Source: Thermoplasmata archaeon (GTDB taxonomy: Archaea; Thermoplasmatota; Thermoplasmata; RBG-16-68-12; JAGMCJ01). From it: a DNA stretch of 43,240 nucleotides. This document shows positions 15,209 through 29,038 of this stretch, piece by piece; the first letter of the stretch is position 1, and each line of letters opens with the position of its first letter. The translations under genes were made by a program, and so were the position numbers. The DNA is taken from NCBI GenBank assembly GCA_023136265.1, contig JAGLRN010000101.1:1-43240 (forward strand), in the 5' to 3' direction. The notes below the pieces were generated by a model, which ran no database searches, had not been told where the DNA came from, and saw nothing but the letters and a program-made list of their open reading frames with translations.

Positions 15209-15613
15209 TTGGGCAAACTAGGCAAGGTTGATTTCGTTCCTTTCTCGAAGGTCGATGGGATCGAGGAGAGGCTGAAGGAGGGCAAGATATCCGCCACAAG
15301 GTGCAAGAAGTGCAAGAACATCTATCTCCCGCCGAGGATGGACTGTCCCGAGTGCTTGGACGAGGAGATGGAGTGGGTGGATTGCGAGGGCAAGGGGACT
15401 CTCGTAACGTATACCACAATCCACGCCGCACCCGCTGGGTTCGAGGATGACGCCCCTTACACGATATGCTTGGTCGACGTCGAGGGTGGTGGACGGCTGG
15501 TCGGCTGGCTCGATGGAAAAGAGGAGGACCTCAAGATTGGTATGGGTGTGAGCGTCGGGATCAGGGACCTCCCAGAGGAGAGGATGATCTACTTCGTGAC
15601 GCCTGAGGAGTGA
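15209..15613 (+). CDS. DUF35 Zn-ribbon/OB-fold protein
   Basis: CKKCKNIYLPPRMDCPECLDEEMEWVDCEGKGTLVTYTTIHAAP. TTG start directly after GGAGGTGATTTC. Adjacent to its usual thiolase partner. Confidence 0.88.
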   Translation: MGKLGKVDFVPFSKVDGIEERLKEGKISATRCKKCKNIYLPPRMDCPECLDEEMEWVDCEGKGTLVTYTTIHAAPAGFEDDAPYTICLVDVEGGGRLVGWLDGKEEDLKIGMGVSVGIRDLPEERMIYFVTPEE

Positions 15614-15969
15614 GGGCTTGACCTGTTCGTGAGGCGGTTGAGCGGTTCGAATCTGTCTTCCAAGAACCTCAAAATGTCCTCAGATGTCTCCGTGGCGATT
15701 CCGTCCTTTCCAATGATGCGGTCGGCAGTCTCTAGGCCCAGGAGGACAGCCTCTGATGACCGAAAGAGTCTGGCTTTGATCCTGCTCCTGAACATCGAGT
15801 CAGTTGGGACTACTCCCAGAATGCAACCCTCATCATAGCTGGCTGAGATAATCTCGACTCCAGCTTCTCTCATCGCTTCCAGCGTTGCAGAATAGAGGGC
15901 TGGAAACGAAACATAGAAAGTCGAGTGTCTCTCATTTCTTCGCATTGACTCGAGATGATGCCCAATCAT
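15589..15969 (-). CDS. Hypothetical protein, 126 aa
   Basis: ORF with GGGAGGT RBS about 10 nt before ATG at 15969 and a perfect palindrome upstream. No family recognised. Confidence 0.55.
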   Translation of the reverse strand: MIGHHLESMRRNERHSTFYVSFPALYSATLEAMREAGVEIISASYDEGCILGVVPTDSMFRSRIKARLFRSSEAVLLGLETADRIIGKDGIATETSEDILRFLEDRFEPLNRLTNRSSPHSSGVTK

Positions 15970-16099: not shown

Positions 16100-16693
16100 C
16101 TATGCTGTGGCCACCGAATCGTCCGCTTCAGTGTCTCGCTTCGGGTCCAAAGAGGCCGCGCGTCCTGCGATCAGCTCCGCTGTCTTTGCGAAGGCCCTCT
16201 CCACATTCTCTCCTGTCTTCGCACTCGTGAAGAGGTACGGAGCATCGTAAGCCGCCGCGAATTCCGCGAGGGCTCTTTCCTCGATTCTTGTCTGATCTCT
16301 CAGGTCTATCTTGTTTGCCAGTATCGTGATTGGAACCTCTCCACTCCCTGAGAACATGTTCTCGATCCATTCAGTCAAGTCGTCGAACGTGTCGGTCCGC
16401 GTGCAGTCGCAGACGGCGATTCCCCCATCCGCATCCTTGAAGTAAGATTCCGTAAACAGGTGCTTGAGGCTCTTCTGTCCCATTATATCCCAGACCATCA
16501 GAGTGGCCTTGACCTCCTGCCCCTTCCAGACAAGCGTGACCTCTTTCTTGGAGACGTTCGTGCCCAGCGTGTAGAGATAGCGCTCATCGAACTCACTGAA
16601 GACGAACCTCCTTATCAGACTGGTCTTTCCCACTCCACCATCGCCTATCAGGCAGACCTTGAGCTTGACTTCCCCGCGGAGGTTTGGTTCCAT
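16100..16693 (-). CDS. Ras/Rab-like small GTPase
   Basis: G1 GDGGVGKTS, G3 WDIMGQK, G4 NKID, G5 TSAKT. ATG at 16693 follows AGGAG; TTAAATAT box about 40 nt upstream. The track ORF starts at 16726. Confidence 0.92.
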   Translation of the reverse strand: MEPNLRGEVKLKVCLIGDGGVGKTSLIRRFVFSEFDERYLYTLGTNVSKKEVTLVWKGQEVKATLMVWDIMGQKSLKHLFTESYFKDADGGIAVCDCTRTDTFDDLTEWIENMFSGSGEVPITILANKIDLRDQTRIEERALAEFAAAYDAPYLFTSAKTGENVERAFAKTAELIAGRAASLDPKRDTEADDSVATA

Positions 16694-16846
16694 CTTCTGT
16701 CTCCTAGTTTCGTCCATCTGTAACATCCATATTTAAGGGGTCATCCCACATTATCAATTCCGATTCCACGGACCGTTCGTGGGTTGACTGGTGTCCTCTG
16801 GCCACACGAGTACGAGGGTGAACGCGTGTTGTCTCCAGCGTGGTTC

Positions 16847-18013
16847 TCACGATATCCTTGCCTCCTGTCGTCTGAACAGACGCTCCAATGCCATTGGCGC
16901 ATCCATTTCCTCCGTTCCAGGGGCCTCGATTACAGACACATCCTCAGGAAGCTCCATTCTGGTTTCTATCTCGTCCACTGGCATCGCGTCATCCAGTTGC
17001 CGCTTGGTCACGATCACGACAAGGCGGACATTTCGATGGCTGGAGGCGACTATCGCCCGCCCTCGTTCGATGTCCTGAGGGTTCGTGCTGTCGACGACAA
17101 GAAACACGCCACTCACCTCTCGACTGAACAGCTTGAACATGGCCGCGAAGCTCTCATCGGCAGGTTCACCAAGCACCTCGATGTCGATGTCCGAAACATC
17201 CAGCCTTCTCCTGTCTTTCCCTTCCCCGATGTGTCCTGTCTCGTCGACAACGGTTCGTGAGCACAGCGAGTGTACGAAATCGTTCTTGCCAGAGTCCTGG
17301 GATCCAATGACGAGGATTCTCGTGGGCTGTGTGGCCCTGCCCACAGGTTCCCTGATTGCGAACGGCACCCAGTCGCTTTCTGAGATCCCGAGCTCCCCTT
17401 TCTCGTGCACCTTCACGAGGTTCTGCAGCTCGTGACCTGCCGTTCTTGTCTCGAACTCCAGGACGCAATCTGCGGACTGCCTTATCCTGGCGAGCTCCCT
17501 ATCCTCCAGGGTCCAGTTCATGAACAATACCAGAGATGCGGTACCCGTGTCCTTTGAGGCCCCGCGCAAGAAATGCCAGAAGTCAATGACCGATTCCTTT
17601 GGGAACCTGTCGAGGAGGAATTCGAGGGAATCGATGACCACTCGACCTGGTCTCTCATTCTCGAGGGCCTCTCTGATGACGCTCTGGATGTGGTTTAGAT
17701 CGAGCACATCGCGAATGACGTACTTCTCCTCAGAGGGCACCATGATCTGACTGGAGACGGCGTCCACTATGATGAGACGGGACTGCTCAGTGACACCGTG
17801 GTTCCTGAACTGCGACCTCGCAAGGCTCGGGGACCTAAAGAAGTCCACGTAGACGCAGACCTCGCCGTGGGCCATTCCTGAGACCACGAATTGCTCGGCA
17901 AGCTCTCTCTTCTCGGTAGGGCTGTTGCTCAGCAGAAGGGACGATGAAGGTCTCGGAAACCCGCCTCCGAGCCATTCATCAACCGTTTCAATACCTGTTC
18001 TTGCCCTACTCAT
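16847..18013 (-). CDS. KaiC/RecA-like domain fused to a GTPase-like domain, both with degenerate nucleotide-binding motifs
   Basis: N-terminal TGIETVDEWLGGGFPRPSSSLLLSNSPTEKRELAEQF is KaiC-like without Walker A. Walker B-like GRVVIDSLEFLL. The second half has RILVIGSQDSGKNDF, GVFLVVDSTNP and VVIVTKRQ. Confidence 0.75.
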   Translation of the reverse strand: MSRARTGIETVDEWLGGGFPRPSSSLLLSNSPTEKRELAEQFVVSGMAHGEVCVYVDFFRSPSLARSQFRNHGVTEQSRLIIVDAVSSQIMVPSEEKYVIRDVLDLNHIQSVIREALENERPGRVVIDSLEFLLDRFPKESVIDFWHFLRGASKDTGTASLVLFMNWTLEDRELARIRQSADCVLEFETRTAGHELQNLVKVHEKGELGISESDWVPFAIREPVGRATQPTRILVIGSQDSGKNDFVHSLCSRTVVDETGHIGEGKDRRRLDVSDIDIEVLGEPADESFAAMFKLFSREVSGVFLVVDSTNPQDIERGRAIVASSHRNVRLVVIVTKRQLDDAMPVDEIETRMELPEDVSVIEAPGTEEMDAPMALERLFRRQEARIS

Positions 18014-18028
18014 GTTGACGTTCTCCTG

Positions 18029-18751
18029 TCAAAGCGATTCATCGGCGACTTCTCTCTCGCTCAGAAACTCCAGCCCAGGACCTCTCTCGGTCAGGACGAC
18101 ATCGAGGAACTCCCCGCCTATGTCGAACTGAACCCACTTCGGGCTCGTCGTTACTCCCTTTATGTGATGGATTCTCATCTCCCTCTGGAGGTTCGGTTTG
18201 AATCTCATCTCGATGACTCCGTCCGCCATCATCGCCAGAGTGTCTGTAGCCCCTTTCTCTGCACCATCGTGAAGCGCAAAGACGCCGAACCCCTGCCAAT
18301 TCCTTAGCTTCGACATGACTATCTGGAAGAATTTCATGAGCACGGAGGACGAATTGTGCAGGAACAGGGGTGACAGGGAGTAGAAGAAGAGGTCCGGTGA
18401 TCCTCCAAGCTGGTTGGCAGCCTTGGAAATGCTCATCCCTATCCCCTCTATGTTCGATAGACTCGTCACGTAGATGGTGCCTCTGGACGGAGTTCCCTCC
18501 CTTACGTTGCTCAGAGATAGGGTGACGCAGTCAATGAATACGAGGTCTTTGCCCTCACGCTCTCCAAGGTTGATGTTGAACTTGAGTGCCCGCTCCTTGA
18601 TCGCTTCTGGCGGGTAGTCCACGCAGACGATGACGACCTTCTTCCCTTCCTTGAGCGAGTGTCTGATCAGTTCGAGGGACCATTCGAGCTTTCCAACTCC
18701 AGGTGGACCCTTGAGCAGAAGTCCAGAGACGTCTGGGAATCTCTCCGTCAC
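18029..18751 (-). CDS. KaiC/RecA-superfamily ATPase-like protein
   Basis: GLLLKGPPGVGKLEWSLELIRHSLKEGKKVVIVCVDYPPEAIKERA, DLFFYSLSPLFL. GTG start overlaps the TGA of the upstream kinase. Confidence 0.75.
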   Translation of the reverse strand: MTERFPDVSGLLLKGPPGVGKLEWSLELIRHSLKEGKKVVIVCVDYPPEAIKERALKFNINLGEREGKDLVFIDCVTLSLSNVREGTPSRGTIYVTSLSNIEGIGMSISKAANQLGGSPDLFFYSLSPLFLHNSSSVLMKFFQIVMSKLRNWQGFGVFALHDGAEKGATDTLAMMADGVIEMRFKPNLQREMRIHHIKGVTTSPKWVQFDIGGEFLDVVLTERGPGLEFLSEREVADESL

Positions 18752-21700
18752 TGAATCACTCCCGTATCGTCATCCTGAGCTTGCCCCCCGTCCTTGGGCT
18801 CCTCGTTCTTCGCGGGGAACGTCAGAGTGATCGTCGTGCCTTCTCCCTCGGAGCTGGTCACATCTATGCTCCCTCTGTGTCTCTTCACTATCATTGACAC
18901 CACATACAGTCCCAGGCCCGTCCCCTTTCCCACATCCTTCGTCGTGAAGAATGGGTCGAATACTTGGGATAACTGCTCCTCAGGAATGCCAATTCCAGTG
19001 TCGGATATCTCGGCCTCGACAAGGTCTCCCTTGGCTCTCGTCGAGAGGACGATCCGCCCGCCATTCCCAAGGGCATCCACGCTGTTCTGGAGAAGGTTGA
19101 TGAATACCTGTTGAAGAGCATGGTGACTCCCCTCCACAGGAGGGATATCCCCGAGATCCGCCACGATGTCGATGTTCTGGGGTTTCTGTGTTATCCTGAT
19201 TGCCTCTAGAGACTCCTGAATGATATCGTTCAAGTCCATATCGATCATATTGAGGTCCATTCCTTCCCTTGAGTATCTCGAAAGCCATCGGACGATTTCA
19301 GATGCTCTTCCGGCTGCGTCCACTATCTTTCGGGCATGGTCCTTGATCAGCCTTGGATCGTCCTCGTCGAGAATCGCCTCTGCGTAGCCCGTCACTCCGG
19401 TGAGCGGGTTGTTCACCTCATGAGCAATCCCAGAGACCAGAGTGCCTATCCCAGCCAGTTTCTCGGACCTGATTAGCCTCTGCTCCGCTTTCTTGGCTTC
19501 AGTAATGTCCCTGACAATGCCCAGGATCATCTTTTCGCCACCCAACGTAATGGGGACCCAGCGAATCTCTGCCTGAACATGGTTCCCATCTTTTCGGATG
19601 AGAGTGGATTCCGCCAGACTGGTCTCTTTCCCTTCGACCTTTGGTCCGAGGACTTCCGCAAATCGACGGACCTCGCCCCCAGGCAGGATGCCCATTTCCC
19701 CGAAACGCTGGTCAAGCCATTCATCCTTCTCGAAACCAAGCATTTCCACGAAGCTCCTGTTCACATCGACAGTCGTGCCGTTCAAGTCCGTAAGTATGTA
19801 CCCGTCTGGAGCGTGCTCGAAAACCAACCTGAATCTCTCTTCCGAACTCTTGATTCGCTCTTCGGCCTTCTTCCTGTCTGTGATGTCATGGACCGTCCCG
19901 AGTAGCCTAACCGGCTGCCCCTTCGCGTTGGCGATCACCTCTACCTCTTCGTGGACGAAACGCATTTCCCCACTGGATAACACGATCCGGTGATCGATGC
20001 TGAAAGGCTTCTTCCTGTTCAAAGCCCCGTCAACCGACCTTTGAACGAGGTCGATGTCTTCGGGATGGACGAGATCCAGGAACGCCTCGTATGTCGCACC
20101 AAACTCCCGAGGACTCAGGCCGAAGATGCGGTAAATCTCGTCAGACCATGTCAACTCGTCTGCCTGCATATTCCAGTTCCAATTGCCCACGTGAGCGACT
20201 CGCTGAGCCTCAACAAGCATTTCCCTGCTTCGCTTCAGCTCCTCCGTCATACGCCTCCTCTGGAGGACCATCGAGGCCTGACTGGCGAATGTCTCGATCA
20301 GCTTCCTGTTCTTCAACCCGGTTCCTCTGCGCGTCATTATCACCACATGAGCGAAGACCGTCTCTCCCCTTTCCATGCCGATGGAGTAGATGTCGCCTAT
20401 CTTTGCCATCTTCATGAACATCTTGGACAGCCTCTTCGAGATTCGACCTTCCGTCAGTTCGTGGATCCCTTGGGATAGCTTCACCAACTCTCCACTTCCG
20501 AGTTGTTCATCCAGTTCTTGGAGGGTATTGAACTGCATCCCCACGATGTCCTTCCCTATCAGCTTGGTGATTGCACGACTCAGCTTGCCGAGTCCGACGA
20601 CCGAGCGCACCTCATGAAGGCCTGCAGTCTCGTCATAGGATGAGACAAGGATGATAGAGTTGCCGGTTATCTCGTTTAGTCGTTTCGCGATGTGCTCGTA
20701 GATGTCATCCTCCTGTGGAAAGGCGGTGAGCTCCAGAGCAGTCCCGTAAAGATACTGCAGGTTGAGCGCTTCTCGTTCGGCCTTCATCTCAGCCCTCTTG
20801 CGGGCAGTAACGTCATTGAGGAGATTCAGCGTCGCTGGTTTCCCTTCCCAGCGGAAGACCACTGCGTTGATCTCGACCCAAATGACGTTTCCACGTTTGC
20901 CGACGACTCTGAATGTGTAAAGGTCGGGAACATCCTTTCTCTTGATTCTCCGTTTGTGGCGGGCGAGCACCATCTCTCGGTCTTCTGGATGGATGAGTTC
21001 CTTGAAGGGCTTCGACGCCAATTCCTTCATGGTATACCCCGTGACCTCCGCGGCTCTGGGATTGGAGAACTTGAGCAGACCGTCCTGGACGACCACGATA
21101 CCCTCGTTGGCGTTCTCAACGAGCAACCTGTACTTCTCCTCGCTTTCACGCAGTGCCCGGCTCATCCTCTTCCGATCTGTGACGTCCCTTGCTATCGTCT
21201 GGAAGGCGTGAACCTTGCCGTCCTTCCTCATCGGGCTGATTCGAACCTCAGTTTCGTGTTCGGTACCGTTTCGATCGACCCAAGTCACTTCCAGCGGTCT
21301 TGGGATCTTTCCCCTCATGAGGGCTGCAAAAACCTTCAGGTACTTCGGGATGTCTCGCGTTCGCAGGGTTGGAAGCTTCGAGAAGTGGTGGCCAACGATC
21401 TCCTCCTTGGTGAAGCCCGTCGATTCCAAGAACGCACGGTTGCATGCCGTGACATTTCCTTTTATGTCTATCGTCGTCATGCCGTCGGGGGCCTGATTGA
21501 CCATTTCTCTGTACTTCTCCTCGGAATGCCTCAGCTCCTCTTCCAGCAGCTTGCGCTCCTCTTCGATTTCTAGAGTGTGCAATGCGGAAGCGATGTCGCC
21601 GACAACCTCTTCGAACAATACTTGCTCTTCCTTGTCTGTGACGAGGTCTCTGGGGGTAGAGACAGACATCAGGCCATAGAACTTTCCCCGGTGTTCTAAT

Positions 21701-22824
21701 CGTATGCTCATCGCTCCTCTGCCTTTGTACGCCTTTGATAGAGGGCAGTCTTTGCAGGTTCTGAAGGGATCATCTATCACTTCGATTCCCGATTTCTTCA
21801 TTGCACTTCGACCACAGGAGCTCAACTCCCCACGCTTCAGTCTTTTGAGCATGGGCTCGAAATCCTTGCCCAAACCGGACTCGGCGGCTGTAACGAGTTG
21901 TCCATCCTCATCTAGTAGGGCGATCCAGGCGTTATGATAGCCACGGGTCGCGATGAGGTTATCGCAAACTCCTTTGAGTAACTTGTCGCGATTCCTCTCC
22001 CTTGTGATGAGTTGGTTGACGCTACGGATGGCTTGCAGCACAAGGTTAAGGTGGTTGATCTTCTTCTTCGCCCACTTGCGCTCTGCAGTGTCAGTAATCG
22101 TTCCTGAGATCTCATCTCCATCAAGAGCTGCGCTCAGTAGCACGTTCTTCTCTTCTCCATTCTTGGATACTAACTCGACATCGAAATCGGTGACCTTCCC
22201 TTCTCTCTTGAGAATCGCAAGCATGATCTTTCTCTTTTCCGGATCTTTGTACCAAGCGAGAACGCCTTCATGAATCATATCCTCAGGGGAGTCGAATCCG
22301 AGGATTCTTGCCAGTGCACGATTCACGCAGAGAATCTCGCCCTTCAAGTTCGTGTTGAACATCCCAATGGGGGCATTCTCCAACATGTCTCTGTATCGCT
22401 TCTCTGACTTCTTCAAGGACTCTTCCAGCCTCTTGTTCTGGGTTATGTCGCGATTGACCACGATGGCCCCAATCGCTTCCCCCTCCGCGTCTCTCACTAA
22501 CGCAACCGACGCCAACCCACGAATCCTCTTGCCATCTTTTTTCCTCTGGATGACTTCCCCCCTCCAGTTATTATTCCGATAGAGACTGTCTAGGACATCC
22601 TTTCTCTCGTCGTTTGCATATTCCAGGCCTGTGACCTCACGCAGGTCTTTTCCAGTCACTTCTTCTGCACGCCAGCCGTACATCTCCTCAGCAGCCCTAT
22701 TCCATCCTGTGATGTTGAAGTCCGCATCAGTGCAAATGACGGCGTCTGAGATGTATACCCAGAGCTCGGTGTGGACAGCATCCTGTAACGACTCTTTTAC
22801 GGGGATGTTCTTGCCCACCGCCAT
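18748..22824 (-). CDS. Multi-sensor histidine kinase (about 6 PAS, 2 GAF, HisKA, HATPase)
   Basis: Repeated PAS S-box tails (RDITQNKRLEESL, ARDVTDRKRMSRAL, NDVTARKRAE, HDITDRKKAEERI, RDITEAKKAEQRL). H-box LVSGIAHEVNNPLTGVTGYAEAI. N/G boxes INLLQNSVDAL, EISDTGIGIPEEQL, GKGTGLGLYVVSMIV. Confidence 0.93.
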   Translation of the reverse strand: MAVGKNIPVKESLQDAVHTELWVYISDAVICTDADFNITGWNRAAEEMYGWRAEEVTGKDLREVTGLEYANDERKDVLDSLYRNNNWRGEVIQRKKDGKRIRGLASVALVRDAEGEAIGAIVVNRDITQNKRLEESLKKSEKRYRDMLENAPIGMFNTNLKGEILCVNRALARILGFDSPEDMIHEGVLAWYKDPEKRKIMLAILKREGKVTDFDVELVSKNGEEKNVLLSAALDGDEISGTITDTAERKWAKKKINHLNLVLQAIRSVNQLITRERNRDKLLKGVCDNLIATRGYHNAWIALLDEDGQLVTAAESGLGKDFEPMLKRLKRGELSSCGRSAMKKSGIEVIDDPFRTCKDCPLSKAYKGRGAMSIRLEHRGKFYGLMSVSTPRDLVTDKEEQVLFEEVVGDIASALHTLEIEEERKLLEEELRHSEEKYREMVNQAPDGMTTIDIKGNVTACNRAFLESTGFTKEEIVGHHFSKLPTLRTRDIPKYLKVFAALMRGKIPRPLEVTWVDRNGTEHETEVRISPMRKDGKVHAFQTIARDVTDRKRMSRALRESEEKYRLLVENANEGIVVVQDGLLKFSNPRAAEVTGYTMKELASKPFKELIHPEDREMVLARHKRRIKRKDVPDLYTFRVVGKRGNVIWVEINAVVFRWEGKPATLNLLNDVTARKRAEMKAEREALNLQYLYGTALELTAFPQEDDIYEHIAKRLNEITGNSIILVSSYDETAGLHEVRSVVGLGKLSRAITKLIGKDIVGMQFNTLQELDEQLGSGELVKLSQGIHELTEGRISKRLSKMFMKMAKIGDIYSIGMERGETVFAHVVIMTRRGTGLKNRKLIETFASQASMVLQRRRMTEELKRSREMLVEAQRVAHVGNWNWNMQADELTWSDEIYRIFGLSPREFGATYEAFLDLVHPEDIDLVQRSVDGALNRKKPFSIDHRIVLSSGEMRFVHEEVEVIANAKGQPVRLLGTVHDITDRKKAEERIKSSEERFRLVFEHAPDGYILTDLNGTTVDVNRSFVEMLGFEKDEWLDQRFGEMGILPGGEVRRFAEVLGPKVEGKETSLAESTLIRKDGNHVQAEIRWVPITLGGEKMILGIVRDITEAKKAEQRLIRSEKLAGIGTLVSGIAHEVNNPLTGVTGYAEAILDEDDPRLIKDHARKIVDAAGRASEIVRWLSRYSREGMDLNMIDMDLNDIIQESLEAIRITQKPQNIDIVADLGDIPPVEGSHHALQQVFINLLQNSVDALGNGGRIVLSTRAKGDLVEAEISDTGIGIPEEQLSQVFDPFFTTKDVGKGTGLGLYVVSMIVKRHRGSIDVTSSEGEGTTITLTFPAKNEEPKDGGQAQDDDTGVIQ

Positions 22825-22839
22825 GCTACATCATCTCAC

Positions 22840-23649
22840 TCACTGCGGCTCATCATCACGACGTTCCTCGATCAGGTCGCCAAACTCCCCCTCGATATCG
22901 CCGAGCTCATCAACGGAGCCAGACCATTTCAAGATTGAGTCGCCATATCTGTTCTCTATTCTCCTGACGGTCCTCCTCATCTCCCTTCTCATGGATCCGG
23001 TATCCTCACCTTCTCCGACGGCCACGAGGAAGAACCCCTCTCCCTCCTCCATTAGGATCTTTGAGTCGCCATGTTCAAAGGACTTCACTTCGTGATTGGG
23101 TTTGTGGAACGAATCTTCTATGAACATCCTGACCGCGGTGAGCATGGAGCCAAAGATGTCGGAATCAGACTCAGACCGGGGAGCGACGGCCTTGTGGTAA
23201 ATCAACTTCCCACCATCGGTCAGCAGATAGACTCCCGAGAGCTGGAACGATTCCCTTTCCCTTGCGGACTCGACCTCCCCGAGGGCTCTCTCGACCGTGG
23301 CTATCAGCTCCTTCTTCCCGACCGGCTTGGCAACGTAGTCACATGCGCCTCTCTTCATTGCGGCGACGCCGACCTCCACGTCTATATAGCCAGTGAGCAT
23401 GACCACAGGTAAGAAGCTGTAGTTCTGTTCAACGTAACTGAGGACCCCGAACCCATCAATCCCAGGCATCTTTATGTCAGTGATGATTAGCGAGATGTCA
23501 TGCGCCTTCAGGACCTCTATTGCGCCCTCCCCGTCGTGTGCCGTCACGACACGATAACCCGCCCGCTCGAGGTGGATGCGCAGCGTGTCTCTCACGAAAT
23601 CCTCGTCATCGACGACTAGAATCGTCCTTGAACCGCCAGCCTGTAACAT
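22840..23649 (-). CDS. Response regulator: REC domain plus C-terminal alpha/beta domain (possibly longin/roadblock-like)
   Basis: REC: ILVVDDEDFVRDTL, phospho-acceptor D in LIITDIKMPGIDGF, VVMLTGY, YVAKPVGKKEL. C-terminal SGVYLLTDGGKLIYHKAVAP...DIFGSMLTAVRMFIEDSF... Confidence 0.9.
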   Translation of the reverse strand: MLQAGGSRTILVVDDEDFVRDTLRIHLERAGYRVVTAHDGEGAIEVLKAHDISLIITDIKMPGIDGFGVLSYVEQNYSFLPVVMLTGYIDVEVGVAAMKRGACDYVAKPVGKKELIATVERALGEVESARERESFQLSGVYLLTDGGKLIYHKAVAPRSESDSDIFGSMLTAVRMFIEDSFHKPNHEVKSFEHGDSKILMEEGEGFFLVAVGEGEDTGSMRREMRRTVRRIENRYGDSILKWSGSVDELGDIEGEFGDLIEERRDDEPQ

Positions 23650-25296: not shown

Positions 25297-27945
25297 TCAC
25301 ATAGTCTTTCTCGTGCCCTTCGGCTCCTGAAGACGATCCAGTGACGCCATGGGTTTGCCCACCTGCTCAGAGAGGGAGATGGCAGTCTCAAAACACATTC
25401 TTGCCTGGTCGACCATTCCCATCTCCCTATACAGCTCACCCGATCTCTTGAAGGAGTCCATGATGTCGGCTGGGGCGCCGTGCGTCTTGATTTGCTCGAG
25501 ATGTCTCTGTATACGGTTAGAAGCCTCGTCGCTTTCCCCTCGCGTGTAGCTAACGAAGGCCAGCGACAGCTCGACGAGCGCGCTATTCTTCTTCTCTTCC
25601 AGCCGATTGAATATCTCCATTGCACTGTCAAGATACCTCTCAGCCTTCGACAGATTGGGTTTCTCAATGTAGATGGATGCCGTGTTGAGCAGAAGGACCC
25701 CTTGGCTTCGCAGGTCTCCGATCCTCTGTGCGAATCTAATGGCACGATCGAAGTACTCGAGCGCCAGGTCATTCTTCTCGAGGTCGTAGAGTGAAATGCC
25801 CAGACCATTGTACAGATTGGGGAGTCTCAACACGTCGTGATTCCCCTCACATATCTCGACCGCCTGCTTCCACGCCTCCATCGCCTTCTCGTGCAGGTTC
25901 TGGAGCGAAAGAATCGTACCCTTCGCTGCAAGATAGTCTGACCTTTCCGATCTATCGAGGTGCTCGGATGTAGATTCGTCCATGAGGCTGAGGTACTCAT
26001 AGCCCCTATCGAAGTCTGTTTGATCCGCATACAGCATCGCCAGGTTCCTGAATACTCTGGTTGTCACCGAAACATCCGTCCGCTCATTGATTTCTTTCTC
26101 TGCTCTCTGGAAGATCTCCAGAGAATCCCTGCTCTGGCCTTGCTTCCTCATGATTTCCCCAATCTGCGAGGCTGCCTCGAGCGCAAGATCGGTATCTCCC
26201 TCTTTTGCGGAAATCCTCTCGGCTTCCTTGAAATCCTCAATGGCTTCCTTCCACCTCCCCGTAAGATTGAGCATCCTCCCCCTTAGAAGATGGATGTCCG
26301 TCACGAATGTACCCCAAGTATCTGAATCCTCCATTGCTTCGAGAATCTCAAGCAGGTCCTCTGAGAAGCCCTCGCTGACGAGGCTCTCTCCATGCAGTGT
26401 CATGAGCTCTGCGGCCCGCTCGAAAAGGCCTCCCTTCACAAGGTGGTATTGAGCCTCTAGGACCGATCCCGGGTCTGAGAAATCGGAGTAGTATTCACCA
26501 GCCCGGCGATGGTATTCAGACCTCTTGGGCTCCGAGAGCTGACCGTAGAAGAACTCCTTCAGGGCGTCGTGCATCACATACTTTTCGTCGGCGCACTCAG
26601 AAAGGAGGGACTGAGAGACCAGGGAGTCAATCATATAGTGGTCCAGCTTCTCTTCGGCAAAGAGCGCACTTGTACTCACTCGTTCTCGGAAGACTGAAGC
26701 GACTGATAGTATCGCTCTCTCTTTCTTGTTCAGCTTGAGGGAGATCTCTTGCCTGAGGAATCTCTTCACGTCGCCGGCAACGACCTGCGCAGAGGAGTCT
26801 ACGAGTTCCAGGAACAGGGGGTGACCTTCCGTTTTCTTGATGATCTCGTCGAACTCGGCCTTCGGGAGCTTGCGCGAGGACAGAAACTCCCTGCAATCCT
26901 TCGCACTGAGTCCGCCCAATTCCATCTCGACCACATGCTTCTTGATGCTCACGTCCCGGGTGTCGTAGAACGGCGGTATCTGCCTGCCCAGAACGATCAT
27001 CTTGAATCCATTGGAGGCTCCGAGGAATCCCTTGGCGGATTCCAAGAAGTTGAGTACGTTGCCCCTGGCGAACTGACAGTCGTCCAGGACAATCATCCCG
27101 TCCAGACCGCGCAGGCAGTCCTCCATAATGAGTCCTACCTCGTCCAGGTCTATCTCCTTGTTCGAATCCAAGTAGAACTTCAGGTCATTCCTTTCTAGTT
27201 CGCTGAGGACCTTGGAGAGGCTCAGAAGGAGGCCACGGAGCGTGGTCCAGTCCTTGAGCCGATAGTAGAACAGATTCGTCTTGCCCTTCGACTTCTTCAT
27301 GACCTTCGCCGCGAGCGTGCTCTTGCCGATGCCCGCGATTCCCCGAATTGTCAGAATGCGCTGTTCCTTGGAATTCAAGAAGCTCTTAACCAGCGTCAGC
27401 TCCTTCCGTCTGCCGAAAAACCTGTGGAGCATCGGAAGCCCAGATGCGACGAGCTTTCTCTTCTTCATCCTCTTCTTCCGGTATTCCGCCATGTCGAACG
27501 CTGACTTGCGGGTGTGAGTCAAGATGTCCAGGAGCGTGGACCCGTCCGCGAGAATGGTGGGAACCTCCCGAAGCCTGACCGTTCTCTTCCCACCAGGGGC
27601 GTTGAGCAGCTCTATCTGCTCGCCTCCTATCCCCGTCTCGATTTCCCGCGCGCGGTCCATTCCCCGGGACGTCAGGAAGTAGCATAACCTCCGTCTCTTC
27701 CCTCTCTGCACGTGCCTCAGCTCCCCGCTTATGAACCCGTTCTCCACGAGTCCGCCTATGACCTGCGACACCTGGCTTCTCCTTATCTCGAGGGCGTCTG
27801 CGATTCCTGACTGCGTGAGTGTGAGGGGCAGCTCCGCTTGATCGTAGATGCCGACATGGTTGTCCAGGAAGAGGACGATCCTCTCACTGATCTGCAGAAG
27901 GTACTTCTTCTTGTAGTACCTTTTGTTGTAGCCCTTCCTCACCAT
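25297..27945 (-). CDS. wHTH-STAND NTPase-TPR signalling/regulatory protein
   Basis: N-terminal MarR-like wHTH (LTQSGIADALEIRRSQVSQVIGGLVENGFISG), P-loop TIRGIAGIGKSTLAAKV, MIVLDDCQ, then many TPR-like repeats. Confidence 0.88.
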   Translation of the reverse strand: MVRKGYNKRYYKKKYLLQISERIVLFLDNHVGIYDQAELPLTLTQSGIADALEIRRSQVSQVIGGLVENGFISGELRHVQRGKRRRLCYFLTSRGMDRAREIETGIGGEQIELLNAPGGKRTVRLREVPTILADGSTLLDILTHTRKSAFDMAEYRKKRMKKRKLVASGLPMLHRFFGRRKELTLVKSFLNSKEQRILTIRGIAGIGKSTLAAKVMKKSKGKTNLFYYRLKDWTTLRGLLLSLSKVLSELERNDLKFYLDSNKEIDLDEVGLIMEDCLRGLDGMIVLDDCQFARGNVLNFLESAKGFLGASNGFKMIVLGRQIPPFYDTRDVSIKKHVVEMELGGLSAKDCREFLSSRKLPKAEFDEIIKKTEGHPLFLELVDSSAQVVAGDVKRFLRQEISLKLNKKERAILSVASVFRERVSTSALFAEEKLDHYMIDSLVSQSLLSECADEKYVMHDALKEFFYGQLSEPKRSEYHRRAGEYYSDFSDPGSVLEAQYHLVKGGLFERAAELMTLHGESLVSEGFSEDLLEILEAMEDSDTWGTFVTDIHLLRGRMLNLTGRWKEAIEDFKEAERISAKEGDTDLALEAASQIGEIMRKQGQSRDSLEIFQRAEKEINERTDVSVTTRVFRNLAMLYADQTDFDRGYEYLSLMDESTSEHLDRSERSDYLAAKGTILSLQNLHEKAMEAWKQAVEICEGNHDVLRLPNLYNGLGISLYDLEKNDLALEYFDRAIRFAQRIGDLRSQGVLLLNTASIYIEKPNLSKAERYLDSAMEIFNRLEEKKNSALVELSLAFVSYTRGESDEASNRIQRHLEQIKTHGAPADIMDSFKRSGELYREMGMVDQARMCFETAISLSEQVGKPMASLDRLQEPKGTRKTM

Positions 27946-28114: not shown

Positions 28115-29038
28115 TTGGACGGATCGGGACAGGATGGCAAGAAGGTCCTGCTAGATGGGATCTCCAAGAAGGAGGACCTCAAGGATGTGAGCCGTAGGGG
28201 GAGGATCGTCTTCGAGGTTGTCGTCAGCGGTCAGGACTCGAGGTTCAAGACGCTGTCCGATCTTCTGGAGACCCACGGCTGGATATGCGAAGAGAGCAGG
28301 GCGACTCTGAGCGTTCCGAAAGACTTCTTCTCCACCGGTGATGCTCGGGCGGTCGAGGCCGTTCGGGACGCGATAGTCAAGATGAAGTATCTTCTCAAGG
28401 TGGCTCATATGGACTACGACATGAGAGTGATCTCGGAAGCTCCGTCATCGGGAAAGGAGGAGAGTGTGGCGAAGCTCAAGGTGGGTCTCGTCGGAGATCC
28501 CAGGGTGGGGAAGACGAGCCTCATTCGGAGGTTCATCCTGGACCAGTTCGACGACAGATACGCGAAGACCATAGGAGCGAAGGTGTCCAAGAAGGAGATC
28601 CATCTCGCTCTGCCCCGGGGCAAGCATATGAGAGTTGACATGATGATCTGGGACGTCATGGGCGAGAAGAACGTCGCGGAGCTATACTTGCAGGCCCATT
28701 TCAAGGGGATGCAGGGGATACTTGCGGTCGCCGATGTGACGAGAGCGGACACGCTCAAGAGCATAGACGAATGGACCGCTTCGGTCCGCCAGGTGGCTGG
28801 CGAAGTTCCTGTCTACGTCCTCGTCAACAAGATGGACCTCGAGGACGAGTTCGACATGGAGCTGGCGGAGGTCTCGAAGTACAGCCGAGGCCTGGGCTCG
28901 CCCTTCGCGTTCACGAGCGCCAAGACGGGAAAGAATGTCGAGAAAGCGTTCATCGAGCTGGCGGACTGGATTCTGTCCCGGGGAAAACAGAAAATGGCCG
29001 TTGCTCCCAGAAGTGATGTCCCCCTTCGGGAACGATAG
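28115..29038 (+). CDS. Ras-like small GTPase with about 100-aa N-terminal extension
   Basis: G1 GDPRVGKTS, G3 WDVMGEK, G4 NKMD, G5 TSAKT. TTG start preceded by GGAGG. Confidence 0.88.
   Translation: MDGSGQDGKKVLLDGISKKEDLKDVSRRGRIVFEVVVSGQDSRFKTLSDLLETHGWICEESRATLSVPKDFFSTGDARAVEAVRDAIVKMKYLLKVAHMDYDMRVISEAPSSGKEESVAKLKVGLVGDPRVGKTSLIRRFILDQFDDRYAKTIGAKVSKKEIHLALPRGKHMRVDMMIWDVMGEKNVAELYLQAHFKGMQGILAVADVTRADTLKSIDEWTASVRQVAGEVPVYVLVNKMDLEDEFDMELAEVSKYSRGLGSPFAFTSAKTGKNVEKAFIELADWILSRGKQKMAVAPRSDVPLRER

Follow-up and report, generated by a model that had tools for sequence, protein, structure and literature searches.

A five-gene run on one strand

What joins a sensor kinase, a response regulator, two KaiC-like proteins and a Ras-like GTPase whose genes follow one another on a single strand? 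The question arises from a 43,240-nucleotide stretch of a Thermoplasmata archaeon genome (here the window; contig C4 of the 1.8-Mb home genome, G000), whose initial annotation had linked the five products into one pathway. The reading that we prefer, and to which we give an even chance, is a two-component-gated small-GTPase module, in which the kinase would act through the response regulator on the GTPase, and the GTPase would work with a pair made of a KaiC-like protein and a KaiC/pseudo-GTPase fusion.

The five open reading frames lie on the minus strand in the order that had been claimed, and order and strand recur in relatives. They encode a response regulator with a receiver (REC) and a longin domain (269 aa, 22840-23649), a sensor histidine kinase (1358 aa, 18748-22824), a KaiC-like protein (240 aa, 18029-18751), the KaiC-GTPase fusion (388 aa, 16847-18013) and a stand-alone Ras-like GTPase (197 aa, 16100-16693). 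Fifteen nucleotides separate the response regulator from the kinase, the KaiC-like gene begins with a GTG that overlaps the kinase stop codon (4-nt overlap), another 15 nt precede the fusion and 153 nt lie between fusion and GTPase; the description of one transcription-unit-like run is supported. In the kinase, Pfam recognized six PAS stretches, GAF, HisKA and HATPase_c, with intact motifs (AHEVNNPL, NLLQNSVDA, DTGIGI and GTGLGL), i.e., the H, N and G boxes are kept. All six PAS stretches annotated at first were recovered, but only one of the two GAF domains scored above the Pfam cut-off.

The GTPase (PF00071, E 7.6e-34) has every G motif intact: G1 (GDGGVGKT), G3 with its catalytic Gln (WDIMGQ), G4 (NKID) and G5 (TSAK). 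We place its start at the ATG at 16693 and not at 16726, because in the sister species (G004) the upstream ATG is replaced by ATA, while the TATA-like box, the AGGAG and the second ATG are all kept. The promoter-like element and ribosome site already noted for this gene (16701-16736, minus strand; TTAAATA at 16730-16736 and AGGAG at 16701-16705) are conserved in G004, and with a promoter-like site of its own the gene may be expressed by itself. The fusion-GTPase spacer (16731-16850, minus strand) differs from that of G004 at 2 positions in 120 nt and is more conserved than synonymous sites. An RNA element considered for this spacer was rejected (fold z-score 0.09, no Rfam match).

Conservation of the run within the order

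The closest named relatives of the window, judged by identity over the response regulator, are two further "Thermoplasmata archaeon" bins (L039, JAGMCJ010000114, 92%; L040, JAGLME010000025, 57%). All genomes compared are draft bins, and absences in G002, G003, G010 and G018 may be gaps; gene maps were anchored by homology, longest-ORF maps being unreliable for the high-GC genomes of family f4. All five genes are present in G004 with the order and strand of the window, the first four in G001 up to the contig end, and response regulator and kinase in G002 before the end of a short contig. Between G000 and G004, dN/dS ranged from 0.09 to 0.32 across the five genes. The run is confirmed as real, with its order kept in other genomes of the genus.

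Beyond the genus (f1), the stable core is the KaiC-like gene plus the fusion. One full-length fusion ortholog is found in most genomes of families f1 to f4, a single one, cut by the contig end, in f5, and none in f6; of the 28 fusion loci in the order, 27 have the KaiC-like gene in front of the fusion, and the remaining one lies at a contig end. The stand-alone GTPase is joined only in f1 and f2, where it follows the fusion by 34 to 153 nt in all six loci with sequence left (none in f3, f4 or f5), and the GTPases in this position form one clade (96/83). The complete five-gene unit is a genus-level feature of f1: REC-longin and kinase are joined to the run in every f1 genome whose contig reaches that far (G000, G001 and G004). 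In f2, REC-longin is a divergent neighbor of the run in one genome (G014), whereas in two others (G005 and G016) it is part of a kinase cluster located away from the KaiC pair. REC-longin was also found with no detected fusion in G002 and a fusion with no REC-longin in G010, both genomes being incomplete. Linkage of the five genes is thus conserved in part, in the genus but not in G005 and G016; the scattering of homologs that would have spoken against one linked pathway is partial.

This pattern bears on the alternative that two pathways share one run, with REC-longin and the kinase serving another of the roughly 15 GTPases of the genome, or a partner that is not a GTPase, and KaiC-like protein, fusion and GTPase working separately. 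The two f2 genomes with a displaced REC-longin speak for it, as do the promoter-like site of the GTPase and the stability of the KaiC pair without the kinase across the order. On the other hand, REC-longin is confined to f1 and f2, the same clade in which the fusion is degenerate, the genes are joined in every f1 genome that can be read and neighboring in G014, and the short gaps and the overlap run uninterrupted from response regulator to fusion. We regard two separate pathways as unlikely, and prefer the single two-component-gated module.

The response regulator carries a longin domain

The initial annotation had described the first gene as a receiver followed by a C-terminal domain. The receiver stands (PF00072, residues 10-119, E 1.5e-28), and D14, D15, D58, T86 and K108 are invariant in five REC-longin orthologs, i.e., the acidic pocket, Asp58, Thr86 and Lys108 are kept. 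The C-terminal domain can now be named. Residues 131-261 (window 22867-23259, minus strand) belong, by sequence family and predicted fold, to the longin domains. The match to PF19036 (Fuz_longin_1, residues 141-236, E 9.7e-6), the first longin of FUZ, MON1 and HPS1, lies just over the cut-off; it recurs over the C-terminal 130 residues in all four aligned members, for which no other curated Pfam family rose above chance. An AF2 model of the domain built from three sequences (pLDDT 73, pTM 0.72) has the elements E-E-H-E-E-E-H-H, the bb-a-bbb-a-a topology of a longin fold (bb-a-bbb-a(-a)) with no N-terminal helix. Foldseek searches of the PDB with this model returned AP-sigma and mu subunits, the VAMP7 longin, LAMTOR, an Asgard Roadblock2, Mon1-Ccz1:Ypt7 and MglB, throughout with probability 1.00 (E 3.5e-6 to 6e-4), whereas profile searches against PDB sequences gave no believable relative. 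A full-length REC-longin model (three sequences, pLDDT 48) was set aside.

In eukaryotes, longin is a fold that contacts small GTPases; longin folds also act as cargo or SNARE domains. The expectation that a small-GTPase switch is involved is supported, but control need not pass through RecA-fold scaffolds alone, as had been supposed, since the response regulator itself carries a longin of the GTPase-regulator type.

Every one of the 37 genomes of this non-Asgard order has relatives of the longin domain (3 to 16 each), and the order has 8 to 21 Ras-like GTPases per genome (the home genome has 14 besides that of the run). With the REC-longins excluded, ten genomes gave 43 longin domains, of which 14 have a Ras-like GTPase gene no more than 5 kb away, where chance would give 2.4. 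Such a count was never attained in 200,000 random placements, a statistic that overstates independence between kin genomes although its direction is clear. Most copies sit in large multi-domain proteins. In the home genome, an AAA/STAND-TPR open reading frame (L174:1828-5425, contig C94) has a longin inserted after the P-loop region and overlaps the start of a Ras-like GTPase open reading frame; at L175:9062-14338 (contig C99), two Ras-like GTPase genes are directly followed by a 1162-aa protein with a C-terminal longin and no Pfam match, which looks like a surface sensor; and two large surface-type proteins (L176 and L178) carry further relatives. Bacterial REC proteins with longin-like matches were also screened, and searches of their loci for longin and GTPase gave nothing.

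Could the longin be only a dimerization or localization module, comparable to MEDS-, DUF835- or Roadblock-like output domains, leaving the nucleotide state unregulated and making REC-longin an effector or adaptor read by the KaiC-like proteins? The best Foldseek matches include cargo and SNARE longins (AP-sigma and VAMP7), and besides the multi-domain setting of most copies, 29 of the 43 have no GTPase gene within 5 kb. The sequence family match, in contrast, is to the FUZ/MON1/HPS1 longin, and longins lie near GTPase genes clearly more often than chance predicts. We consider this alternative improbable; the preferred module, with a longin acting on the GTPase, accommodates the family match and the clustering.

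An exchange within an old KaiC-GTPase module

Both KaiC-family proteins of the run lack the ATPase motifs, in agreement with their description as defective. The KaiC-like protein (PF06745, E 3.4e-11), companion of the fusion, has neither a working Walker A nor a working Walker B; its orthologs in the order share GPPGVGK(L/F)E and FY(S/T).S.LFLHN. At the place of the GxxxxGK[ST] of active KaiC, the window proteins read GPPGVGKLE (KaiC-like) and SNSPTEKRE (fusion). The fusion combines this KaiC half (residues 1-227; PF06745, E 1.7e-14) with a degenerate small GTPase half (residues 228-388; PF00025 Arf, E 1.1e-5). The fusion as first annotated is borne out, with the GTPase-like half decayed in this clade and intact elsewhere.

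The KaiC-GTPase fusion is old and phylum-wide. A search of 390 sampled genomes for fusions outside the order gave 39 profile matches, of which four belong to the order itself or to its class, and its neighbors were compared in about 50 orthologous loci. In f3, f4 and f5 the fused GTPase is intact (GPF(N/A/S)AGKST, GTT, GTPGQERF and NK(S/T/A)D, with strong Pfam Arf/Ras scores), and a Roadblock gene lies beside it in 22 of 22 loci. The usual arrangement there is two Roadblock/LC7 genes directly downstream of the fusion, followed by KaiC-family genes; a single Roadblock was detected in genus g9 (where the contig ends early) and one in f5. Both other families of the class have a Roadblock in or near the fusion locus (1.1 kb away in G050), and in other classes 17 of 20 loci have a Roadblock gene (PF03259) beside it, with a KaiC-family neighbor too. 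The comparison with MglA/MglB/Frz made at the outset is apt, since the fusions of most relatives adjoin MglB-type Roadblock genes.

In f1 and f2, the fused GTPase has lost the G1, G3 and mostly the G4 residues. The window protein has GSQDSGKND, EVLGEPADESF and VTKRQ in place of the GPFNAGKST, GTPGQERF and NKSD of f3/f4, while that of G014 keeps GKT and NKQD. The f1 and f2 fusions form one clade (support 100/100) on a long stem, and none of their seven loci, the window included, has an adjoining Roadblock. The window thus retains a fusion beside a KaiC-like gene and lacks both an intact fused GTPase and an adjacent Roadblock. Selection still acts on the decayed half (dN/dS 0.30 in the f1 pair and 0.10 in the f2 pair), which is therefore not junk.

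These sequences indicate that the module lost its in-built GTPase and its Roadblock neighbors and acquired a free GTPase together with a receiver-borne longin regulator. The ancestral set of KaiC-like protein, KaiC-GTPase fusion and Roadblocks would have undergone decay of the fused GTPase and disappearance of the adjacent Roadblocks, with the arrival of a separate GTPase and of REC-longin. The best hint of a causal tie among these four changes is that the replacement is positionally exact; the exchange happened once, so they cannot be tested as correlated events. The same changes would also suit an obligate heterodimer (Rag- or SRX/SR-beta-like) of degenerate fusion half and free GTPase, the latter having taken over as the catalytic half and the kinase link being secondary, and purifying selection on the decayed half, the free GTPase adjoining the fusion in every f1/f2 locus with sequence left, and G014 as an intermediate state all agree with it, but such a putative dimer is compatible with the preferred module and not exclusive of it, and as a rival we find it very improbable.

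Some relatives of the module have other neighbors. In f3/f4, the run of KaiC-like gene, fusion and two Roadblocks extends into three KaiC-family genes (L132:5172-9770, minus strand, G017; L133:12160-15858, plus strand, G006), one of which is fused to TPRs in f4. A distant family of the same class (L137:7849-10886, G050) combines free and fused GTPase in one row of genes, made up of a Ras-like GTPase, a V4R-domain gene, an intact fusion and a KaiC gene (GPPKTGKS).

A putative phosphorylation-gated GTPase switch

The wiring of the preferred module we infer as follows. The PAS/GAF kinase, with a cytosolic input, would phosphorylate the receiver of REC-longin at Asp58, in line with established two-component biochemistry. 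Phosphorylation would expose or dimerize the longin domain, which would bind the stand-alone GTPase and change its nucleotide state, a step suggested by fold, family and gene clustering. For the direction of regulation, GEF-like action is slightly preferred because the sole family match in Pfam is to the FUZ/MON1/HPS1 longin. The GTPase would work with the KaiC-like protein and the fusion as an ATPase-dead scaffold, and GTP binding would alter the docking partner of this scaffold. Counting against this reading, REC-longin could serve any of the 14 further Ras-like GTPases of the genome.

As to the output, a type IV pilus or archaellum-like motor is our best guess, a tentative one, because relatives of the module lie in Tad/type IV pilus loci, the window fusion gives an ArlH score (E 2.5e-10) well short of the cut-off of that model, and a TadC pair is present on another contig of the home genome. 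The pilus link comes from other classes and not from the window locus: two loci (L279 and L271) have, all on one strand, a VirB11/TadA-like ATPase, TadC, TadC, Roadblock, fusion and KaiC, and three more have a TadA-like gene nearby, the ATPase being named by its sequence (GGTASGKTT...) and its place before the TadC genes and not by a family search.

A more far-reaching proposal, which we consider less likely than not, is that REC-longin unites in one polypeptide a receiver and an exchange factor that acts on a Ras-like GTPase under the control of phosphorylation, so that a prokaryotic histidine kinase would lead directly to a GTPase regulated by a longin. It would have arisen when an old archaeal KaiC module exchanged its fused GTPase and Roadblocks for a longin regulator and a free GTPase; longin and Roadblock control of small GTPases would then be interchangeable in non-Asgard archaea.

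Relation to known systems

One parallel is offered by the conservons (CvnA-D) of Actinomycetota, which are operons with a histidine kinase, a Roadblock-fold regulator and a small Ras-like GTPase (PMC4316618; PMC13343842). The window likewise unites a histidine kinase (18748-22824), a Roadblock-fold-type regulator and a small Ras-superfamily GTPase (16100-16693) in one operon. In contrast, its regulator is a longin fused to REC, its kinase is rich in PAS/GAF domains and keeps its catalytic motifs, and in place of CvnC there are two KaiC-like proteins. An MglB-type Roadblock/LC7 gene (CvnB) is absent from the window locus and the other f1/f2 loci, which have the longin domain instead, and no match to CvnC (DUF742) turned up when the five genes and their neighbors were scanned against Pfam.

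In Myxococcus, MglA, MglB and RomR-RomX bring together a small GTPase, a Roadblock regulator and a response regulator in a GEF complex that acts on type IV pili (PMC9481161, PMC6785124). The window shares the combination of small GTPase, regulator and response regulator, but here REC and GTPase-regulator fold are in one polypeptide, the regulator is a longin and not a Roadblock, the partners are KaiC-like, and the pilus connection is confined to relatives from other classes. The Roadblock partner expected of an MglA-MglB pair is missing at the window and stands beside the fusion in f3, f4, f5 and most other classes.

Archaeal KaiC-family proteins with lost ATPase motifs (iKaiC) beside two-component genes, including a REC-iKaiC fusion, have been described (PMC5847659). 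Motif loss and two-component neighbors are common to both, while the GTPase and the longin set the window apart; neither is mentioned in the main text of that archaeal two-component census. Among the thaumarchaeal NitrOD domains, NitrOD3 is a Roadblock/LC7-related output domain of response regulators (PMC5847659), so that both systems have REC with a Roadblock/longin-type output, although NitrOD3 is Roadblock-related and no GTPase is mentioned with it in the census text. The FUZ/MON1/HPS1 RabGEF longins resemble the window domain through the PF19036 match and through the fold match to Mon1-Ccz1 bound to Ypt7, but RabGEFs are paired longin subunits that catalyze Rab exchange, whereas a single longin on a bacterial-type receiver is predicted here.

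A literature search, with the 2017 KaiC-hub work outside its range, found no description of Roadblock plus KaiC in archaea or of Thermoplasmatota GTPases; part of the KaiC-GTPase fusion family may already be catalogued. The logic of GTPase, Roadblock-fold regulator and two-component system is known from conservons and MglA/MglB/RomR, whereas the parts, the fusion and the exchange appear to be new. Most discussion of longin and Roadblock control of Ras-like GTPases has concerned eukaryotes and Asgard archaea (PMC10933270); the archaeal order considered here lies outside Asgard and has several longin domains per genome, one of which is attached to a two-component receiver. The phylum-wide operon of KaiC-GTPase, Roadblock and KaiC gives the KaiC hubs, whose partners are mostly obscure, a concrete output in a small GTPase beside a Roadblock. 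The natural intermediates (intact fusion, half-decayed in G014, decayed in f1) make the rewiring testable.

Other genes around the run

A 126-aa gene with no Pfam match (15589-15969, minus strand) lies 130 nt past the GTPase on the same strand, has 92% identity in G004 and could be a sixth member of the run. Upstream of the operon, in the window as in G004, there is an 882-aa HTH-STAND-TPR protein (25297-27945, minus strand), distant relatives of which are found ca. 7 kb from the fusion in f2. Farther out, a second Ras-like GTPase gene (28421-29038, plus strand, within an open reading frame at 28115-29038; PF00071, E 8e-31) belongs to another clade than the GTPase of the operon.
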